Shown here in pieces: positions 7,466 to 17,775 of a stretch of DNA of 64,000 nt. Where the stretch lies: the NCBI GenBank assembly GCA_018434685.1, contig JAHDOV010000015.1:1-64000 (forward strand), written 5' to 3'. This DNA comes from Deltaproteobacteria bacterium (GTDB lineage Bacteria; Desulfobacterota; Desulfomonilia; UBA1062). Every line of letters starts with the position of its first letter. Within the stretch, counting starts at the first letter, position 1. The position numbers were made by a program, and so were the translations under genes. A model generated the notes under the pieces. That model was not told the origin of the DNA. It saw only the letters and a list, made by a program, of their open reading frames with translations, and made no database searches.

Positions 7466-7638
7466 GGCAAGCTCCTCAGACGCGGTTACTGACAAAACAT
7501 TTCATCTTATTCCTCAAATATAGTTACCTGCCCGGTTCAGTCAAGATAGCGGAGAAGACGGGAAAGCTCCCGTGCATGTCCTGGATATAATTCTCTGATC
7601 ATAACAGGTGCAATACAAAAAGGGGTTGTCAGATCTCA

Positions 7639-7751
7639 ACAATTGTTCAACCCTCTTTTCGGGGTCAAGAGGGGCCTTCTAAGCCTTAAGAAGGGTCTTC
7701 TTCTGATCAATTATCCAGGTATTCCAGTTGGTTGTCTTGGTCAGACCCTCC
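7639..7751 (+). repeat. Dispersed repeat B, copy 1
   Basis: About 113 bp containing a CCTCTTTTCGGGG hairpin-like segment, then AAGCCTTAAGAAGGGTCTTC, and a shared 3' part GATCAATTATCCAGGTATTC followed by TTGGTTGTCTTGGTC. Copies 2 and 3 are at 10206-10318 and 12592-12709. This is the most diverged of the three. It lies between a cytochrome gene and a lipoprotein gene. Confidence 0.8.
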
Positions 7752-9151: not shown

Positions 9152-9487
9152 CTTAATCTCCCTCATTACCTATTTCTACCATTGGCCGATCAGCCGGATC
9201 GGCCAGCATCTGTAGTTTCCTACGTTCACTATACCTAACCCTGCAGACGAACATGTCACCAGGCACCCAATTGCCAGGAAATCACCCAAATATTCTCAAC
9301 CAGTGCCTCCCTCCACTGATCATCTCGATTATAGCATTATCAGTGAGGCCTGCAACAAATTAATTATGGATATCATCCGTAATAAAAGTAGGTTAGAGCC
9401 AATAAAGGGGGACGCCCTGAGCTTATTGATTTGAACCGGCTACGATCTGATCTGACAAGAGGTCGCCTTTCTGAAGGGACAGTTGGA
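9152..9487. other. Intergenic, hairpin in lipoprotein leader
   Basis: Contains a perfect 8-bp stem GGCCGATC/GATCGGCC with a 5-nt loop (9184-9204) about 30 bp upstream of the lipoprotein start, within its likely leader. No gene was recognised in the rest. Confidence 0.45.
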
Positions 9488-9543
9488 GCCTTGTAATGCC
9501 GCCTTAATAAGCAGGGATGATGAACATGTTATAATGCAAGACC
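9488..9543 (+). repeat. Dispersed repeat A, copy 1
   Basis: A ~56-bp element reading CTTGTAATGCCGCC ... GCAGGGATGATGAACATG ... AATGCAAGACCCTATT. Well-preserved copies (10500-10556 and 12120-12176) end in inverted GGTCTTGC/GCAAGACC. This copy lies directly after the 3' end of the duplicated secreted protein gene. Confidence 0.75.
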
Positions 9544-9553
9544 CTATTCACAA

Positions 9554-9919
9554 TTATAAATCAGTATGATTAATCTGATACGGGTTCTTCCTTGCTTCCG
9601 CTGCCGAATCGGCCCGAGAAATTCCCAGCCTGCTGCAGTTAACCCATTCGTCACTACCTCGATACCTAAAGTACAATTTAAGGGGGGTGGTTTTCCCTTC
9701 CGCCATGTACCTGACCATTTCGTTTCCGCCCGGCCACACTGTCCCGGAAACTATCGGCGTACCATGCTGGGTTATCATGAACTCTATCACCCGACGGTTG
9801 TGATCCCTGTTCTGGAACAGCGTGTAGTGCTCCGAACCGGCAAACAAGGCAGTGTCATAAGCACACAGGAAAAGAACGATCAGTAACAGGTGACGCCATT
9901 TGTTCATGAATCTTGTCAA
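9554..9919 (-). CDS. Small secreted protein, paralog 1 of a duplicated pair
   Basis: About 121 residues with an N-terminal signal peptide (HLLLIVLFLCAYDTALFAGS) and a compact ~90-residue secreted part. No family was recognised. It is about 90% identical to the product of 12187-12552. No ATG is well placed, but GGAGG is spaced 7 nt from a TTG at 9919 in both paralogs, so TTG is the likely start; an ATG four codons later is the alternative. Substitutions between the copies are scattered and neither copy has a stop or frameshift, which suggests that both remain functional. It is bracketed by repeat A copies. Confidence 0.65.
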   Translation of the reverse strand: MTRFMNKWRHLLLIVLFLCAYDTALFAGSEHYTLFQNRDHNRRVIEFMITQHGTPIVSGTVWPGGNEMVRYMAEGKTTPLKLYFRYRGSDEWVNCSRLGISRADSAAEARKNPYQINHTDL

Positions 9920-10143
9920 AACGTATCCTCCCCCCTGAATGTGTTTCAAACCCTGTTCCGGTGGTCCCGGGTAAGGTTATTCATTTTGAATATTTAGGCC
10001 AAAAACACCAAACCATTCTCTGCTGTTTCATGGAGAACCCGAATACAAATACAACACCTGTCAGTTTCATTCAATTAGTTTCATTACTCAATTTAATGGT
10101 CGTACCAAGTTAACTTGTTGATATATAAGCATTGGAGAGTTGG

Positions 10144-10198
10144 GGTCATGTAATGCCACATCAATTAGCAGGGGATGAAAATGTTATAATGCATGACC
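10144..10198 (+). repeat. Dispersed repeat A, copy 2 (diverged)
   Basis: TCATGTAATGCCACATCAATTAG and ATGTTATAATGCATGACCCT match repeat A with several changes. It is immediately followed by repeat B copy 2. Confidence 0.65.
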
Positions 10199-10205
10199 CT
10201 ATTTT

Positions 10206-10318
10206 AATTGTTCTTAGAACCCCCTTTTCGGGGCCAAAATGGGCCCTCTAAGCCTTAAAAAGGGGCTTTTTTTGATCAATTATCCAGGTATTCCAATTGG
10301 TTGTCTTGGTCCGACCCC
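10206..10318 (+). repeat. Dispersed repeat B, copy 2
   Basis: About 113 bp: TTGTTCTTAGAACCCCCTTT, a CCCC-TTTT-CGGGG mini-hairpin, AAGCC...GGGGCTTTTTTT (terminator-like on the plus strand), then GATCAATTATCCAGG and TTGGTTGTCTTGGTCCGACC. Nearly the same as copy 3 at 12592-12709. Confidence 0.85.
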
Positions 10319-10341
10319 ATTTTCATTTTCATTTTCGTTCC

Positions 10342-10461
10342 CTCACGGTAGAAGAGGCACGCTCGTTAACTGAGATGCTTTCACTCAATGACCTGACGGT
10401 TGAGCCTGATGCGGGGGGTATAAACTGGACTATGGAAGCAACAAAACCTCTTTGGCCATAA
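10342..10461 (+). pseudogene. Repeat C, copy 1: remnant of a protein C-terminus
   Basis: A frame reading LTVEEARSLTEMLSLNDLTV, then EPDAGGINWTMEATKPLWP and a stop, with no start codon or ribosome-binding site upstream. The same C-terminal peptide recurs at 11959-12078 and 13060-13125 in the same frame and ends at a TAA in all three. The peptide conservation suggests that the repeat came from the 3' end of a once-functional gene that has been copied around this region. The parent family was not recognised. Confidence 0.55.
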
Positions 10462-10499
10462 CCGAACCCTGCAGCTCTGCTTCTTGGGTCACACTATCA

Positions 10500-10556
10500 G
10501 GTCTTGCAATGCCGCAGGAATGAGCAGGGATGATGAACAGGTGCTAAGGCAAGACC
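10500..10556 (+). repeat. Dispersed repeat A, copy 3
   Basis: 57 bp ending in inverted 8-bp repeats GGTCTTGC/GCAAGACC. It directly follows repeat C copy 1 and its conserved 3' flank. Confidence 0.8.
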
Positions 10557-10766
10557 CTATTAATTTGAAACACACATGGTTCTGTCCTCTGATCACTTGA
10601 ATCAAACGTTCCGGGCATTATCATTTCTTTTAAAATGAGACATCATCAGTAATGAAAGGGCCGGAATACAAACTTTTCTGCCCTGCCATCCCCTTTGAAT
10701 AACCGATCCTTTTATAATCGATGATGCACGGTACAGGGACAACATGAAATACATGAGGAGGAAATA

Positions 10767-11949: not shown

Positions 11950-11958
11950 GTTTTCACC

Positions 11959-12078
11959 CTCACGGCAGAAGAGGCACGCTCGTTGACTGAGACGCTTTCA
12001 CTCAATGACCTGACGGTTGAGCCTGATGCGGGGGGTATAAACTGGACTATGAAAGCGACAAAACCTCTTTGTTCATAA
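11959..12078 (+). pseudogene. Repeat C, copy 2: remnant of a protein C-terminus
   Basis: The frame reads LTAEEARSLTETLSLNDLTV, then EPDAGGINWTMKATKPLCS and a stop. It differs from copy 1 by a few residues but keeps the frame and stop. No start or ribosome-binding site was seen. It is followed by repeat A copy 4. Confidence 0.55.
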
Positions 12079-12119
12079 CCTGACCCTGCAGCGCTGCTTC
12101 TTGAGTCACAGTATTATCA

Positions 12120-12176
12120 GGTCTTGCAATGCCGCAGGAATAAGCAGGGATGATGAACATGTTCTAATGCAAGATC
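12120..12176 (+). repeat. Dispersed repeat A, copy 4
   Basis: Differs from copy 3 at only a few positions, with ends GGTCTTGCAAT and ATGCAAGATC. It is followed directly by the 3' end of the second small secreted protein gene, as repeat A copy 1 is for the first. Confidence 0.8.
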
Positions 12177-12186
12177 CTATTCACAA

Positions 12187-12552
12187 TTATAAATCAGTGT
12201 GATCAATCTGATACGGGTTTTTCCTTGCTTCCGCTGCTGAATCGGCGCGAGAAATTCCCAGCCTGCTGCAGTTAACCCATTCGTCACTACCTCGATACCG
12301 GAAGTACAATTTAAGGGGGGTGGTTTTCCCTTCCGCTATATATGTGACCATTTTGTCTCTGCCCGGCCACACTGTCCCTGAAGCTATCGGGGTACCATGC
12401 TGGGTTATCATGAACTCTATCACCCGCTGGTTGTGATCCCTGTTCTGGAACAACGTGTAGTGCTCCGAACTCGCGAACACGTCAGTGTCATAAGCACACA
12501 GGAAAAAAACGATCAGTAACAGGTGGCGCCATTTGTTCATGAACCTTGTCAA
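12187..12552 (-). CDS. Small secreted protein, paralog 2 of a duplicated pair
   Basis: About 121 residues, about 90% identical to the product of 9554-9919. It has the same TTG start spaced from GGAGG and the same signal peptide layout. The mature parts share FQNRDHN.RVIEFMITQHGT and a fully conserved C-terminal half except for one Asn/Asp change. The shared flanking repeats on both sides show that the gene and its flanks were duplicated together. Function is unknown. Confidence 0.65.
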   Translation of the reverse strand: MTRFMNKWRHLLLIVFFLCAYDTDVFASSEHYTLFQNRDHNQRVIEFMITQHGTPIASGTVWPGRDKMVTYIAEGKTTPLKLYFRYRGSDEWVNCSRLGISRADSAAEARKNPYQIDHTDL

Positions 12553-12591
12553 AACGTATCCTCCCTCAATGTTATAATGCAAAACCCTATT

Positions 12592-12709
12592 TCAATTGTT
12601 CTTAAAACACCCTTTTTAGGGTCAAAATGGGCCTTCTAAGTCTCTAAAAGGGGCTTTTTTTGATCAATTATCCAGGTATTTCAGTTGGTTATCTTGGTCC
12701 GACCCTCCA
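12592..12709 (+). repeat. Dispersed repeat B, copy 3
   Basis: Nearly matches copy 2. It includes AAAAGGGGCTTTTTTTGATC, which could end transcription on the plus strand. A short repeat A remnant (GTTATAATGCAAAACCCTAT) lies just before it at about 12570-12589. Confidence 0.8.
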
Positions 12710-12971: not shown

Positions 12972-13125
12972 ATGGCTTCTAAGAACATAGCCATTTATGG
13001 AATCTATCCGAACCGGCCAATGGTTTAAAAAGGCGGTTGAAGAATTGAAAGATGAAATAACGGTTGAGCCTGATGCGGGGGGTATAAACTGGACTATGAA
13101 AGCAACAAAACCTCTTTCTTCATAA
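12972..13125 (+). pseudogene. Frameshifted small gene fused to repeat C copy 3
   Basis: ATG at 12972 opens MASKNIAIYGIYPNRPMV and then hits a stop. The next frame continues the expected sense as KKAVEELKDE, and at 13060 runs into repeat C (TVEPDAGGINWTMKATKPLS then stop at 13123-13125). The start resembles a family of small stress-type proteins that begin ...GIY..R..VE.AV..L...GF. It appears that the gene suffered a frameshift and lost its 3' part where repeat C joins. A 42-residue frame from 12997 could still be translated, but lacks a ribosome-binding site. Confidence 0.5.
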
Positions 13126-13190
13126 TCTGACCGTGCAGCTCTGCTTCTTGAGGTACACTCTTATCAGGTCTTGTAATGCCACCGTATTCT
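13060..13190 (+). repeat. Repeat C copy 3 plus truncated repeat A
   Basis: From ACGGTTGAGCCTGATGCGGG onward the sequence matches the other C copies through the TAA and conserved 3' flank, then GGTCTTGTAATGCC, the first part of repeat A, before diverging at about 13190. It marks the left edge of the repeat cluster next to the integron cargo. Confidence 0.7.
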
Positions 13191-13239: not shown

Positions 13240-14199
13240 TTAGAGTTCAACCGAACCATTAAGCTCTCTTTCATTGACCGCTGAAATAAATGAGCACGCT
13301 ACAAAGATATACTCAAGACCTGTCGAATCTCGTATATCCCAAGCAGCACTGACTTCGGGATCTGTACCATGATCAGCTGCATTACGAATATGTCCAAGAT
13401 ATTTACTTATATTTAAGATTTTTTTTGGCATTACTGAACTATTATTATGAAGTTCTTCTGCTTTAGAATTTATTCCATTTCTACCACTAAGATTAACTCC
13501 TATCCTACTACCTAGTGCATCCATAAAAGATTCAATTGCATTTCCTGCTGATACAACCGCCCCACGCCCATCATTATTTCGAGCTCGTTGGATCGCATTT
13601 GAGAGGGGTATGATAACATAATCACGTGATATACGATCCGCTGCTCGCTGGCCTATCCTTTGACGGATAAGTTCTTCTGCTGAAGCATCGTTTGCACATC
13701 CTTCTGTTAAAGCACGGAGATCATAGATATCTGTGTCTTCTCGTGGTCGATAACCTCCCCCACCTTCAGCGATGAGAGCCTGACTATATTGCCCAAGACT
13801 CAATAGTGTTTCTTTGACATCATCATGGTGTGCATCAAGTTCTAGAAGTCTTTTCACTTGTCTTGCCGCTGTAGTAGCATCTCCTGTTGCAATTAGACGC
13901 TCTCGGAATTTGGTAAAAGGTTCATATGCTTCCAATAATACTCGAAGGGCTGTTGCTTTACGTTGCTGGTTTGCTGTTGCAAATGATCTGCATAAGGGGC
14001 TAATTGCTTCAAAAAGATTTCCAGAAGTTCTGAGAAGACCAAGATCGGATGCCAAAGATAACGCTGCTTCTGCATTTAACTTCGTCAACTGATTGAAATC
14101 AGCTACATACTCTGCATCCCGAGTTGACATAGCCAGATAGATTGCATCGACTGAAGCAACCACAGCTTCAGCAGTCGCTCGCCAGAAGGGTCTAGACAT
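13240..14199 (-). CDS. HEPN/Abi_C-like C-terminal domain protein, candidate toxin or effector
   Basis: A 319-residue, mostly helical protein. Residues ~170-310 follow the HEPN/Abi_C pattern: an AIQRARN...GAVVSAGNAIESFM helix pair, then ILNISKYLGHIRNAADHG. The last part contains an RX4H motif (R272 to H277), the hallmark of many HEPN ribonucleases. The N-terminal ~160 residues are unassigned. It is encoded 5 bp after a winged-helix-like protein gene on the same strand, so the two are almost certainly co-expressed. Low G+C compared with the host suggests acquisition. A role in abortive infection or as an RNase toxin is an inference. The domain call is from motif pattern, not a profile search. 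Confidence 0.6.
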   Translation of the reverse strand: MSRPFWRATAEAVVASVDAIYLAMSTRDAEYVADFNQLTKLNAEAALSLASDLGLLRTSGNLFEAISPLCRSFATANQQRKATALRVLLEAYEPFTKFRERLIATGDATTAARQVKRLLELDAHHDDVKETLLSLGQYSQALIAEGGGGYRPREDTDIYDLRALTEGCANDASAEELIRQRIGQRAADRISRDYVIIPLSNAIQRARNNDGRGAVVSAGNAIESFMDALGSRIGVNLSGRNGINSKAEELHNNSSVMPKKILNISKYLGHIRNAADHGTDPEVSAAWDIRDSTGLEYIFVACSFISAVNERELNGSVEL

Positions 14200-14204
14200 A
14201 GTTC

Positions 14205-14912
14205 TTACTCTTGAGCATGCTCTTTACCTAGGGCCTCGATTAGCATCCTAAGCTTTGGCCCCAAAGACTCTAATTCTTCTGGTCGACAATCGACTCGAAT
14301 TTGAATCACAAGTGATGCTGAGGGACTGACTTGTGTAAGAGGAATTTTAACTTTTTGTTTAGATTCGGATAATACAGAAATAGGGCGTTGGGTAGCTGCA
14401 TGTATTTCCGTTATTGGCTCTGATTCTACTATAGCAATGATCTTTCCATCTTCTTCTCTAATAAGAGCTGCAGCCTTAAGCACATCAATAATAGTTCCTG
14501 CACCAGTCATTGAGCGTGGATTTTTAGGAAGACCAGCTGTGTAAGCAACATGATTACGGAGGGCATAGGGGTCCATTCCTCCACGAATTCGAATGGCAGA
14601 AATTATTTTCTTTAAGAATTCATTACCTACAACTATTGTAGACCAAGCTTTTTCTATTTGGTCTGGCATATCAAAATCTAGTGCTTGAGCAAGAGATTTA
14701 CCCTCAGAAGTAAGCGTTTTTCTCTTACCTCCTGATAGAATTCCTATTGAGAGAAGAAATCCGTTGTTGCGGCTTACTTGAGTTGGATCCATCCCAGCTC
14801 TATCAGCTACGTCTTTCGGCACAGCATCATCAGGTGCATGTCCATAAGCTCTTATGATTTTAACTAATTCAGCATATGAAGATCCTGGAAACTTGAAGCT
14901 TTCTTCTGTCAT
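14205..14912 (-). CDS. Winged-helix-like protein, partner of the HEPN-like protein
   Basis: A 235-residue protein. Residues ~10-80 resemble a winged-helix fold: YAELVKIIRAYG, VPKDVADRAGMDPTQVSRNN and then GFLLSIGILSGGKRKTLTSE, like the recognition helix and wing. The middle may form a second similar module (SAIRIRGGMDPYALRNHVAY ... GAGTIIDVLKAAALIREEDG). The C-terminal ~60 residues predict beta strands followed by a helix. A good GGGAGGT ribosome-binding site precedes the ATG. Given the 5-bp gap to the next gene it may be an antitoxin, sensor or regulator of that protein. No named family is assigned with confidence. Confidence 0.55.
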   Translation of the reverse strand: MTEESFKFPGSSYAELVKIIRAYGHAPDDAVPKDVADRAGMDPTQVSRNNGFLLSIGILSGGKRKTLTSEGKSLAQALDFDMPDQIEKAWSTIVVGNEFLKKIISAIRIRGGMDPYALRNHVAYTAGLPKNPRSMTGAGTIIDVLKAAALIREEDGKIIAIVESEPITEIHAATQRPISVLSESKQKVKIPLTQVSPSASLVIQIRVDCRPEELESLGPKLRMLIEALGKEHAQE

Positions 14913-15047
14913 CAGCTACCTCCCTTTTTACTATCAACTCAAGTCGTTGTATTCTTTTACAAATAATAAATATTACAATGCTTATATTTACAAGATAAAA
15001 AATTGAATTGTTACATGTGAAATGCTTTATCTCCATCTTTTCAGATA

Positions 15048-15108
15048 GTCAAATGTTGGGCATCAGTGGCGCGGAACCGCCGCGTCCGTTTGCATGCCTT
15101 TGTTAGGT
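15048..15108 (-). other. attC: attC-like integron recombination site
   Basis: Read on the minus strand, the 61 bp begin with the R'' core ACCTAAC (15102-15108, matches RYYYAAC). They then show GGCAT ... ATGCC and CGCGG-CGGTT-CCGCG as nested inverted arms, and end CAAC-ATTTGAC where AAC-GTTRRRY is expected. Size and layout fit an attC. The stop codon of the upstream (p)ppGpp synthetase gene (15103-15105) lies inside the R'' core, as in classic gene cassettes. The R' core is mutated (G to A at the cleavage position, plus one further mismatch), so recombination here is probably weak or lost. Confidence 0.7.
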
Positions 15109-16170
15109 CAAGTTCTTCTTCATTTCTTCCCATGCCTTTAGCACTTGTATTTGAGCTTTTATCGCCTCTATCTTGCTTGAATCGCTATCAACACCTGAGA
15201 TTGCTGAAATACTGGCAATAGTTTCGAAATTAGTAGGATTTCGATCCTCAAGATCCTTATAAGTTGAATGAATTAGATCTATATTATGTTTAGTGCTGAT
15301 AGTTCTTAAGTCACCAACAGTTCTTATTGAATGGCTGAAAAGGATTTTAAGCAGACCATCAATTTCTTTTTGTGCACAACCTATTCCACCTTCACTAAGT
15401 ACTGCGGGTAGGTTTTCAGCATTCAGAGGGTTATCTTCCTTATATATACTTTCTTCCTGATATCGTGAGAGTTCTTCATATAGTAGATTAAAATGTTCGT
15501 CGATTGATGTGAGTTCTGAGCTGATAATTTTAAATTGCTTTTTTACAGCAAAGGATGTTTTTTTACCCGGTTTGTAACCCAAAACATGTTCTATTTCTCC
15601 CCAAACATCCTCAGTAATCGTTCTGACTTGTATTTCAAACCATGGACGATCAATCTTGGGGACTACTGATTCTCTCAGTCTGACTATGTAATGGATTGAT
15701 GCATAACCACTATCTTTCTGTTTTCGCAGAACATGGTTCAGTCCAAATGTTTCAAGTATTTCCTGACTAAGATATGCTATCGGAGGGCTTGCTGATGATA
15801 TTTCAATGTCATCGCTGTTCCGTAACTCTTTATCTATCATTGGTAGGTTAGCTAAGAAGTATACTAATATTCTACCTGCAACAGCGTCGTGCATTTTCTT
15901 TACACTATTGATGCACAGCCCTTCTGTAAACTCATGAGTATTCCGAAGGATCTTATCTACCACACTCTCGGGCCGCTTTATTCTAGAAATTGCTCTTTGT
16001 ACTGGCGAAGGCGATGGCAATCGAGAAAGACGAGGCACTAAAGACCAATAATTATGATCTCGCCATTTTTCGAAAACTTTCCTCAATTCATAATTCGTTG
16101 GCTTTAATACATCCAGAATATATTGCTCATAATTTATTAAAAATGATTTTTGCTTTTCAACATCTGTCAT
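15103..16170 (-). CDS. Stand-alone RelA/SpoT-type (p)ppGpp synthetase in an integron cassette
   Basis: A 355-residue protein with one RelA/SpoT nucleotidyltransferase domain (about 40-240) and no HD hydrolase, TGS or ACT domain. Conserved synthetase motifs are present: RIKRPESVVDK (63-73), HDAVAGR with the metal-binding Asp (94-100), GYASIH (155-160) and EIQVRT (179-184) followed by EIEH. It is expected to transfer pyrophosphate from ATP to GDP/GTP, or possibly to tRNA as some toxic small alarmone synthetases do. The C-terminal ~115 residues are an unassigned helical domain. TTGGAG six bases before the ATG at 16170 decides the start; the frame extends in-frame to 16215. It is the first cassette after the integrase, and A+T-rich. 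No obvious antitoxin gene is adjacent. Confidence 0.85.
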   Translation of the reverse strand: MTDVEKQKSFLINYEQYILDVLKPTNYELRKVFEKWRDHNYWSLVPRLSRLPSPSPVQRAISRIKRPESVVDKILRNTHEFTEGLCINSVKKMHDAVAGRILVYFLANLPMIDKELRNSDDIEISSASPPIAYLSQEILETFGLNHVLRKQKDSGYASIHYIVRLRESVVPKIDRPWFEIQVRTITEDVWGEIEHVLGYKPGKKTSFAVKKQFKIISSELTSIDEHFNLLYEELSRYQEESIYKEDNPLNAENLPAVLSEGGIGCAQKEIDGLLKILFSHSIRTVGDLRTISTKHNIDLIHSTYKDLEDRNPTNFETIASISAISGVDSDSSKIEAIKAQIQVLKAWEEMKKNLT

Positions 16171-16184
16171 GATTTTCTCCAATG

Positions 16185-16191
16185 ACCCAAC
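16185..16191 (-). other. attI/cassette junction core site (GTTGGGT)
   Basis: The minus strand reads GATT-GTTGGGT-CATTGGAG just upstream of the synthetase start, matching the GTTRRRY core where cassettes join attI. It pairs with the ACCTAAC core at the other end of the cassette with one mismatch, as expected for the two ends of one cassette. The cassette would therefore run from about 16190 to about 15055. Confidence 0.6.
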
Positions 16192-16291
16192 AATCACCAT
16201 TCCTAAATCCTGCATGCGAACAGGCTATCAGGCAGGCAATTGCAACTATATAATCAAATTACAATACACTCTCTCCTTTTTACGGTTTTGC

Positions 16292-16320: not shown

Positions 16321-16476
16321 TGGTTATTTCATAGAATTCCCCTGTGATGAAAGAGAGTTAGACCATTTTTAACCTGTTTGATACGATCCAGATGCCCCTG
16401 CCGAAAGCACAGAACCACCCGGTTTAACGTATTTAGGCAGAAGATCTTCCACCTAGTGAAATATATCTTGCCTTTT

Positions 16477-16505
16477 GTGGAAATATAATTAAAGTATTAT
16501 AATTA
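16477..16505 (+). promoter_or_regulatory. Candidate integrase promoter
   Basis: TTGTGG (16477-16482), a 17-bp spacer and a perfect TATAAT (16500-16505) lie 28 bp before the integrase ATG. Confidence 0.5.
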
Positions 16506-16533
16506 AATTGCATTGTAATTTTTAAATGTTCGT

Positions 16534-17535
16534 ATGAAGGCGTCCAAACCATTACCAGAAAAAGGTGTATCCGTGCAAGAGACTTTGCTGGAGAAGCTCA
16601 GCCATGTCCTGCGGCTCAGGCACTATTCCGCCCGCACCGAGCAGGCCTATTGCTCGTGGGTGAGGCGCTATGTCCTGTTCCACAACCGGAAGGACCCGCG
16701 CGAGATGGGCAAGGTTGAGATCGAGGCATTCCTCGCCTACCTGGAGAACACCCGTAAGGTTTCGCTTGTAACGAAAAACCAGGCGCTCCAGGCGCTCCTG
16801 TTCCTGTACCGCGAGGTGCTCCACATGCCGGTCGTGGTGGCCCTCCATGCAGAGCGCGAGCAGAAACCTGTGCGCCCTGCCCTGGTGATACTGACCCGCG
16901 ACGAGGCCAGGAGGGTCATCTCGTGCCTGAGCGCCACGTATCGGCTCATGGCTAAGCTGCTCTACGGCAGTGGGTTGCGGCTTACGGAGTGCACCACGCT
17001 CAGGGTCAAGGATATCGATTTTGACCGTGAGCGCATCGTGGTGCGTGGAGGCACGGAGCTCAGGGATCGGGTCACCATCCTGCCTGCAGCCGTGAAGCAG
17101 CCCCTGGCAGAACACCTTGAGCGGATGAAGATACAGCACGAGCAGGACCTTGCCCAGGGCTACGGGGCCGTGCCCATACCGGGCGATCTCCCGGAGAAAT
17201 CCCCCCGGCAGAGCGCGGCATGGGGCTGGCAGTATGTGTTTCAGGCGGCTTCGCTGTCCACCGACCCGGAGACTGGGGCTGTCATGCGCCACCACATCCA
17301 CAAGAACAGCCTGCAGAAGGCCGTGAAACAGGCAGTCAAGCTCTCTGGCATCGACAAGCCTGCCGGGTGCCAGACCTTCAGGCACAGCTTTGCCGCCCAC
17401 CTCATCGAGGCAGGCAACGACATCAGGATCGTGCAGGACCTGCTCGGCCACAGGAACGTGAACTCCACCATGGTCTACCGGCAGCCGGCACAGCGCACCA
17501 ATCAGCAGGTGATAAGTCCGATGGATGAAAGATAG
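16534..17535 (+). CDS. intI: Integron integrase IntI with altered catalytic residues
   Basis: A 333-residue tyrosine recombinase. The N-terminal SAM-like domain has LRLRHYSARTEQAYCSWVRR (about 26-45). The integron-specific insert is at about 218-263: LPEKSPRQSAAWGWQYVF, then STDPETGAVMRHHIHKNSLQ, which separates IntI from Xer proteins. Catalytic R149 (GSGLRL), R283 (TFRHSF), H306 (LLGH) and nucleophile Y315 (TMVY) are present. However, the beta-hairpin Lys normally in GKGxKDR is T174 (GGTELRDR), and the His of HxLR is Q280 (CQTFR). The frame is full length without stops and G+C-rich, unlike the cassettes it faces. It would recombine attI and attC sites if active. The start lacks a clear ribosome-binding site; a GTG at codon 14 is an alternative. 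Confidence 0.9.
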   Translation: MKASKPLPEKGVSVQETLLEKLSHVLRLRHYSARTEQAYCSWVRRYVLFHNRKDPREMGKVEIEAFLAYLENTRKVSLVTKNQALQALLFLYREVLHMPVVVALHAEREQKPVRPALVILTRDEARRVISCLSATYRLMAKLLYGSGLRLTECTTLRVKDIDFDRERIVVRGGTELRDRVTILPAAVKQPLAEHLERMKIQHEQDLAQGYGAVPIPGDLPEKSPRQSAAWGWQYVFQAASLSTDPETGAVMRHHIHKNSLQKAVKQAVKLSGIDKPAGCQTFRHSFAAHLIEAGNDIRIVQDLLGHRNVNSTMVYRQPAQRTNQQVISPMDER

Positions 17536-17775
17536 GCACTAGGCGCTGGGCGCCAGGCACTGGGAAAAGATGGGTTCGGATCGTATGGACACGGATCATA
17601 GCTTAGACTCTCAACCCTCAGCCCCTTTTTCCTAAAACTTAAAACCTAAAACGTAAAACCCGACTTTCTGACCTCAAACATAAGCCCCTCTTCCTAAAAC
17701 TCAAAACCTAAAACGTAAAACCCGACACACCCGCCCTCTCCTCCCCCCTGCGGGTGCTTAATCCCCGATGAAGCC
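17536..17775. other. Intergenic with short direct repeats
   Basis: Contains GGCACTAGGCGCTGGGCGCC near 17536-17560, a motif that recurs at about 23806-23830. CCTAAAACNTAAAACCTAAA followed by ACGTAAAACCCGA is present twice (about 17630-17663 and 17692-17726). No gene was recognised. A promoter for the ABC operon follows. Confidence 0.6.

Follow-up and report, generated by a model that had tools for sequence, protein, structure and literature searches.

A full-length integron integrase with threonine and glutamine in place of two catalytic residues in a deltaproteobacterial genome

The window, a stretch of 64,000 nucleotides from the deltaproteobacterial draft assembly GCA_018434685.1 (contig JAHDOV010000015.1), contains an integron integrase gene (intI) in which the codons for two catalytic residues are replaced and the reading frame is intact. 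The question raised by this locus is whether the encoded protein remains a recombinase, is retained for some other use or is the remnant of a decayed integron.

The integrase gene and its catalytic residues

The intI frame (16534-17535, + strand) begins with ATG and runs for 333 codons with zero internal stops, as originally predicted. Its product scored 369.7 bits against TIGR02249, exceeding the curated cut-off of 265 bits for integron integrases, and possesses both the N-terminal SAM-like domain and the catalytic domain. By sequence and by predicted fold, the closest solved relative is IntI4 of V. cholerae (PDB 2a3v; TM 0.80 against 2a3v_A); the structure model had a mean pLDDT of 85.7 and informs fold, not activity. 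The additional segment specific to integron integrases was identified by alignment, with K222 and W232 on K219 and W229 of IntI1. The window integrase thus resembles IntI1 and IntI4 in family, length, added segment and fold, and shares with them two Arg, the second His and the Tyr of the active site. No relative more than 53% identical was found in GTDB contigs, a sample of the phylum, plasmids or viral contigs.

Alignment with IntI1 was ungapped at both sites of interest and placed Thr174 (ACG; 17053-17055, + strand) at the catalytic Lys (IntI1 K171) and Gln280 (CAG; 17371-17373, + strand) at the box II His (IntI1 H277). Lys and His occupy these columns in IntI4 and in a second integrase of the same genome, encoded on contig C33. 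The hairpin of the window integrase reads VRGGTELRDRVT and box II reads CQTFRHSF. Within the set R, K, H, R, H, Y, the Lys and the first His are therefore replaced, while R149, R283, H306 and Y315 are kept on R146, R280, H303 and Y312 of IntI1; in both respects the original prediction was borne out. The nucleophile Tyr315 is followed by R316 and Q317, where relatives carry Thr and His (17476-17484, + strand). The possibility that a shifted Lys or His fills either position, raised with the prediction, was checked by alignment and rejected, since both columns align without gaps and the hairpin contains no free Lys; Arg177 corresponds to the second Lys of the canonical GKGGKDR motif and does not represent a displaced catalytic Lys. 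The protein is best described as a TIGR02249 member by descent that is incomplete as an enzyme.

Both replacements are rare. Among 218 relatives, comprising 128 from genomes and viral contigs together with lower-scoring integron integrases from the same phylum, the Lys column held Lys in 217 and Arg in one, and the His column held His in 216, Gln in one and Asn in one. Replacement of both residues together was seen in none of the 218, and in the smaller set of 128 both columns were invariant. Relatives were chosen by similarity to the window integrase, which makes outlier status harder to obtain. In a published survey of Shewanella, K171 and H277 were conserved in 182 of 182 IntI proteins (PMC9229058). 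The existence of an integrase lineage characterised by the Thr/Gln pair was considered and set aside, as no other member was found among the 218 relatives. The single relative with Gln at the His position, L272, is 46% identical to the window integrase and has nearer kin elsewhere.

L272 (G143:C94:4805-5749) is itself a full-length integron integrase that retains the Lys and the rest of the catalytic set. The relative with Asn in place of the box II His, L228 (G330:C84:8907-9851), is likewise full-length and keeps the Lys. The genomes of both have three integrase matches each, a lead that spare intI copies may lose catalytic residues. Two further integron integrases, L209 (G160:C60), with Lys to Arg and a match that includes a stop, and L213 (G198:C31:74447-75343), with the box II Arg replaced by Pro, appear to be further signs of missense decay.

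Divergence of the gene and condition of the locus

Loss of conserved residues extends beyond the catalytic positions. At the 52 columns conserved in at least 95% of sequences, the window integrase is altered at 12 (A71E, Q81K, V119I, K174T, G175E, P237Q, H280Q, T288A, L291I, T311S, T316R and H317Q), ranking first of 219 proteins; the others averaged 0.9 altered columns and the next highest had five. The original description of the losses was accurate for Thr174 and Gln280 and overlooked G175E, which lies directly after Thr174, as well as T311S, T316R, H317Q and other conserved residues. In a smaller alignment, six of the 31 strictest columns are lost in the window integrase and none in the functional IntI1 and IntI4; of these six, P116A is next to an insertion of one residue and is absent from the list obtained with the larger alignment. 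Losses in the 95-99% columns are equal in IntI4 and the window integrase, whose excess lies in the strictest class. An even loss across conservation classes, considered as a sign of pure neutrality, was accordingly dropped.

The end branch of the window integrase measures 1.59 changes per column, about four times the median of 0.42. That of IntI4, for which an attC-bound structure has been solved, is also long at 1.45. The GC3 of the window intI is 0.80, compared with 0.85-0.86 for adjacent chromosomal genes, 0.56 for the C33 intI and 0.23-0.30 for cassette genes; this resemblance to neighbouring chromosomal genes suggests long residence in the chromosome. The earlier suggestion of a young fossil is consequently doubtful: the gene is no more than 53% identical to anything found, sits on a long end branch, has a host-like GC3 and is altered at many conserved columns, and so was not copied recently from a known active gene. 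Recent duplication of the C33 integrase was similarly rejected (50% identity, no supported grouping, GC3 0.80 against 0.56).

As with IntI1 and IntI4, the window intI faces an attI-like core and a cassette. The candidate core, GTTAAAC (16422-16428, - strand), lies 105 nt upstream of intI within AATACGTTA, which also precedes the intI of the C33 integron; in most other relatives GTTRRRY was absent near intI within the stretch searched. A possible, weak cassette promoter, TTAAAA-18-TATAAT (16496-16525, - strand), points at attI, two such sites occurring in the region against 1.4 expected from shuffles. Matches to a LexA-type box, CTGT-N8-ACAG, with one mismatch were at chance level in a scan of the window, one of them at 16342.

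Between attI and attC is a cassette gene of 370 aa (15103-16215, - strand; GC3 0.30) with a RelA/SpoT nucleotidyltransferase domain (PF04607, E 4.2e-16), which also shows a weak match to the candidate defence family PDC-S33. The only attC match in the window (15045-15111, - strand) was detected with a covariance model built on ten attC sites of the same genome (22.7 bits, E 0.011 for the window) and is the weakest of 36 genome-wide. Its R'' site, ACCTAAC (15108-15102), is intact and its R' site is ATTTGAC (15054-15048) instead of GTTRRRY, in agreement with the mutated attC core noted originally; the window therefore has no attC with both core sites intact. Past the attC are two low-GC genes of 235 and 319 aa (14205-14912 and 13240-14199, - strand), for which no Pfam match, PADLOC match or attC of their own was detected.

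Several repeats flank the integron. Just 3' of intI, a 42-nt direct repeat (93%) rich in CTAAAACNTAAAAC occupies 17623-17726, and a GGCGCTGGGC motif found near it is also present 3' of the C33 intI. Three families of dispersed, non-coding, REP-like repeats with internal dyads lie to the left (7611-7748, 10180-10317 and 12568-12705; 9482-9548, 10495-10561 and 12115-12181; 10340-10497, 11957-12114 and 13004-13161), and similar repeats are found near the C33 and C42 loci, the start of an apparent REP-associated (RAYT-type) transposase being present at C33:1-140. A 131-aa ORF that has a signal-like start is present in two copies between repeats (9554-9949 and 12187-12582, - strand), which are approximately 92% alike over 300 nt; the copy at 12187-12582 had no Pfam match.

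Elsewhere in the genome, C33 carries an intact intI (C33:5434-6411), with Lys and His in place, and six attC matches. On C42, an attC array adjoins an intI 3' fragment (C42:51122-51349) that has Tyr at both catalytic His positions; the DNA downstream is common to C33, and the fragment seems to be a segmental copy from the end of the C33 intI. The 36 attC-like matches are distributed over C42, C17, C33, C56, C44, C30, C57 and other contigs, several arrays sitting on contigs without an intI match, and about 35 outscore the attC of the window. The organism thus has an integron that seems complete, along with sizeable arrays that the C33 integrase probably serves; the integron in the window is small and worn.

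Probable loss of cleavage and competing explanations

The catalytic Lys of tyrosine recombinases makes contact at the cleavage site, where its proposed role is to protonate the 5'-OH leaving group, and the tyrosine is helped by the box II His. Thr174 would offer no amine to reach the cleavage site and protonate the leaving 5'-OH, Gln280 would provide no His to help activate the tyrosine, and G175E, T311S, T316R and H317Q would add losses around the active site. The same two columns have been changed in Cre, where K201A is catalytically inactive, failing to cleave while still binding and synapsing, and H289A recombines with reduced yield; a few natural tyrosine recombinases have Gln or Tyr at the His position (PMC4381057). 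The Thr is for these reasons the graver change. The Cre mutants are engineered, single Ala changes in a different recombinase, whereas the window integrase combines Thr and Gln. The protein has very probably lost cleavage, and the original expectation of an inactive or slow enzyme is well supported by inference, the Lys being needed for cleavage in Cre, although change of the His alone is not necessarily fatal.

The explanation we favour, with reasonable confidence, is that the window encodes the cleavage-defective integrase of a relic integron, its useful rate of DNA cleavage most likely lost and the arrays probably being served from C33. The protein would be what is left stranded from an old integron of the chromosome, along with an attI-like core and one cassette; as the attC of that cassette is without the cleavage triplet, neither capture nor excision would occur at the locus, and selection on the integrase would be relaxed.

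The open frame bears on how far constraint was relaxed. In neutral simulations reaching the observed loss of conserved residues, the frame was free of stops in approximately 2-7% of runs. Likelihood comparison disfavoured full neutrality 6-12 fold when only stops were counted, and between 17 and several thousand fold with indels at 2-10% of substitutions, these neutrality tests depending on assumed rates and small counts for a gene that was noticed because it is full-length. Purely neutral decay therefore fits poorly: a frame still open after so much change makes a long spell of full neutrality unlikely. The mildness of replacements in strict columns, considered as a sign of selection, was not significant (P 0.10-0.15). 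A fair reading is that constraint was relaxed rather than absent, the frame being kept at least part of the time.

That the frame is open although many conserved residues have changed would also be expected if a cleavage-dead protein kept only its DNA binding, as suggested originally, and were used at attI or attC, whether to repress its own region or to join the C33 integrase as a non-cleaving or poisoning partner. Most attC-binding landmarks are retained (K222, W232, F236, P245, R252 and H253), the Cre K201A mutant binds and synapses, and a precedent exists in MrpR, the phage SPbeta repressor made from a tyrosine recombinase (PMC10516654). MrpR shares with the window integrase the fold and the loss of catalytic residues, having Asn itself at the His position. 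It differs in that its Lys is retained and the places of the arginines are lost. The regulatory role of MrpR is proven, whereas one for the window integrase, which is not closely related in sequence, would be hypothetical. Two replacements, Y223S and P237Q, fall in the attC-binding part, the Thr/Gln state, shared by no relative, gives no sign of a conserved new role, and the local attC has decayed. A retained binding role is on balance unlikely. Also unlikely is a built-in regulator of cassette shuffling, which would repress its own locus, dampen the C33 integrase in trans or fill non-cleaving places in the synapse.

The retention of both Arg, the last His and the Tyr could alternatively indicate a slow or re-tuned recombinase in which other groups replace the Lys and His. 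Gln or Tyr occurs naturally at the His position in a few tyrosine recombinases, Cre H289A recombines, and L272 carries Gln in an otherwise intact catalytic set. Cre, however, needs the Lys for cleavage, and in the window integrase there is no shifted Lys, the GKG turn, T311, T316 and H317 are lost too, and the single attC in the window is degenerate. Residual or altered activity is accordingly improbable. Sequencing or assembly error at codons 174 and 280 is very improbable. The genome is a draft in 58 contigs, and a single nucleotide separates either codon from a usual one, but about 12 conserved-column changes spread across a gene with no frameshift, and approximately 50% divergence from everything else, are not the product expected of errors.

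Implications for the recognition of inactive integron integrases

Active integron integrases are costly and readily inactivated (PMC3510236), and inactive intI genes are already well known; about one third of intI genes in one survey were pseudogenes by stop or frameshift (PMC2426708). The window integrase resembles those pseudogenes in that its function is probably lost and another integrase is present in the genome. It differs in having no internal stop, no frameshift and no length deviation of 20%, the features by which those pseudogenes were called; it is full-length, open at 333 aa and altered by missense changes, at the two catalytic positions and at adjoining conserved residues that distinguish it from IntI1 and IntI4. 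The modest new point would be missense inactivation with an intact frame.

An intI gene inactivated by missense change escapes counts based on stops and frameshifts. The family model accepts the window intI as normal in spite of its altered active site, so dead integrases may be commoner than such counts indicate; screening the K171 and H277 columns would be a cheap way of detecting them. In a genome with an intact second integrase, as here, the gene would also allow a natural test of interference by a dead integrase with an active one.
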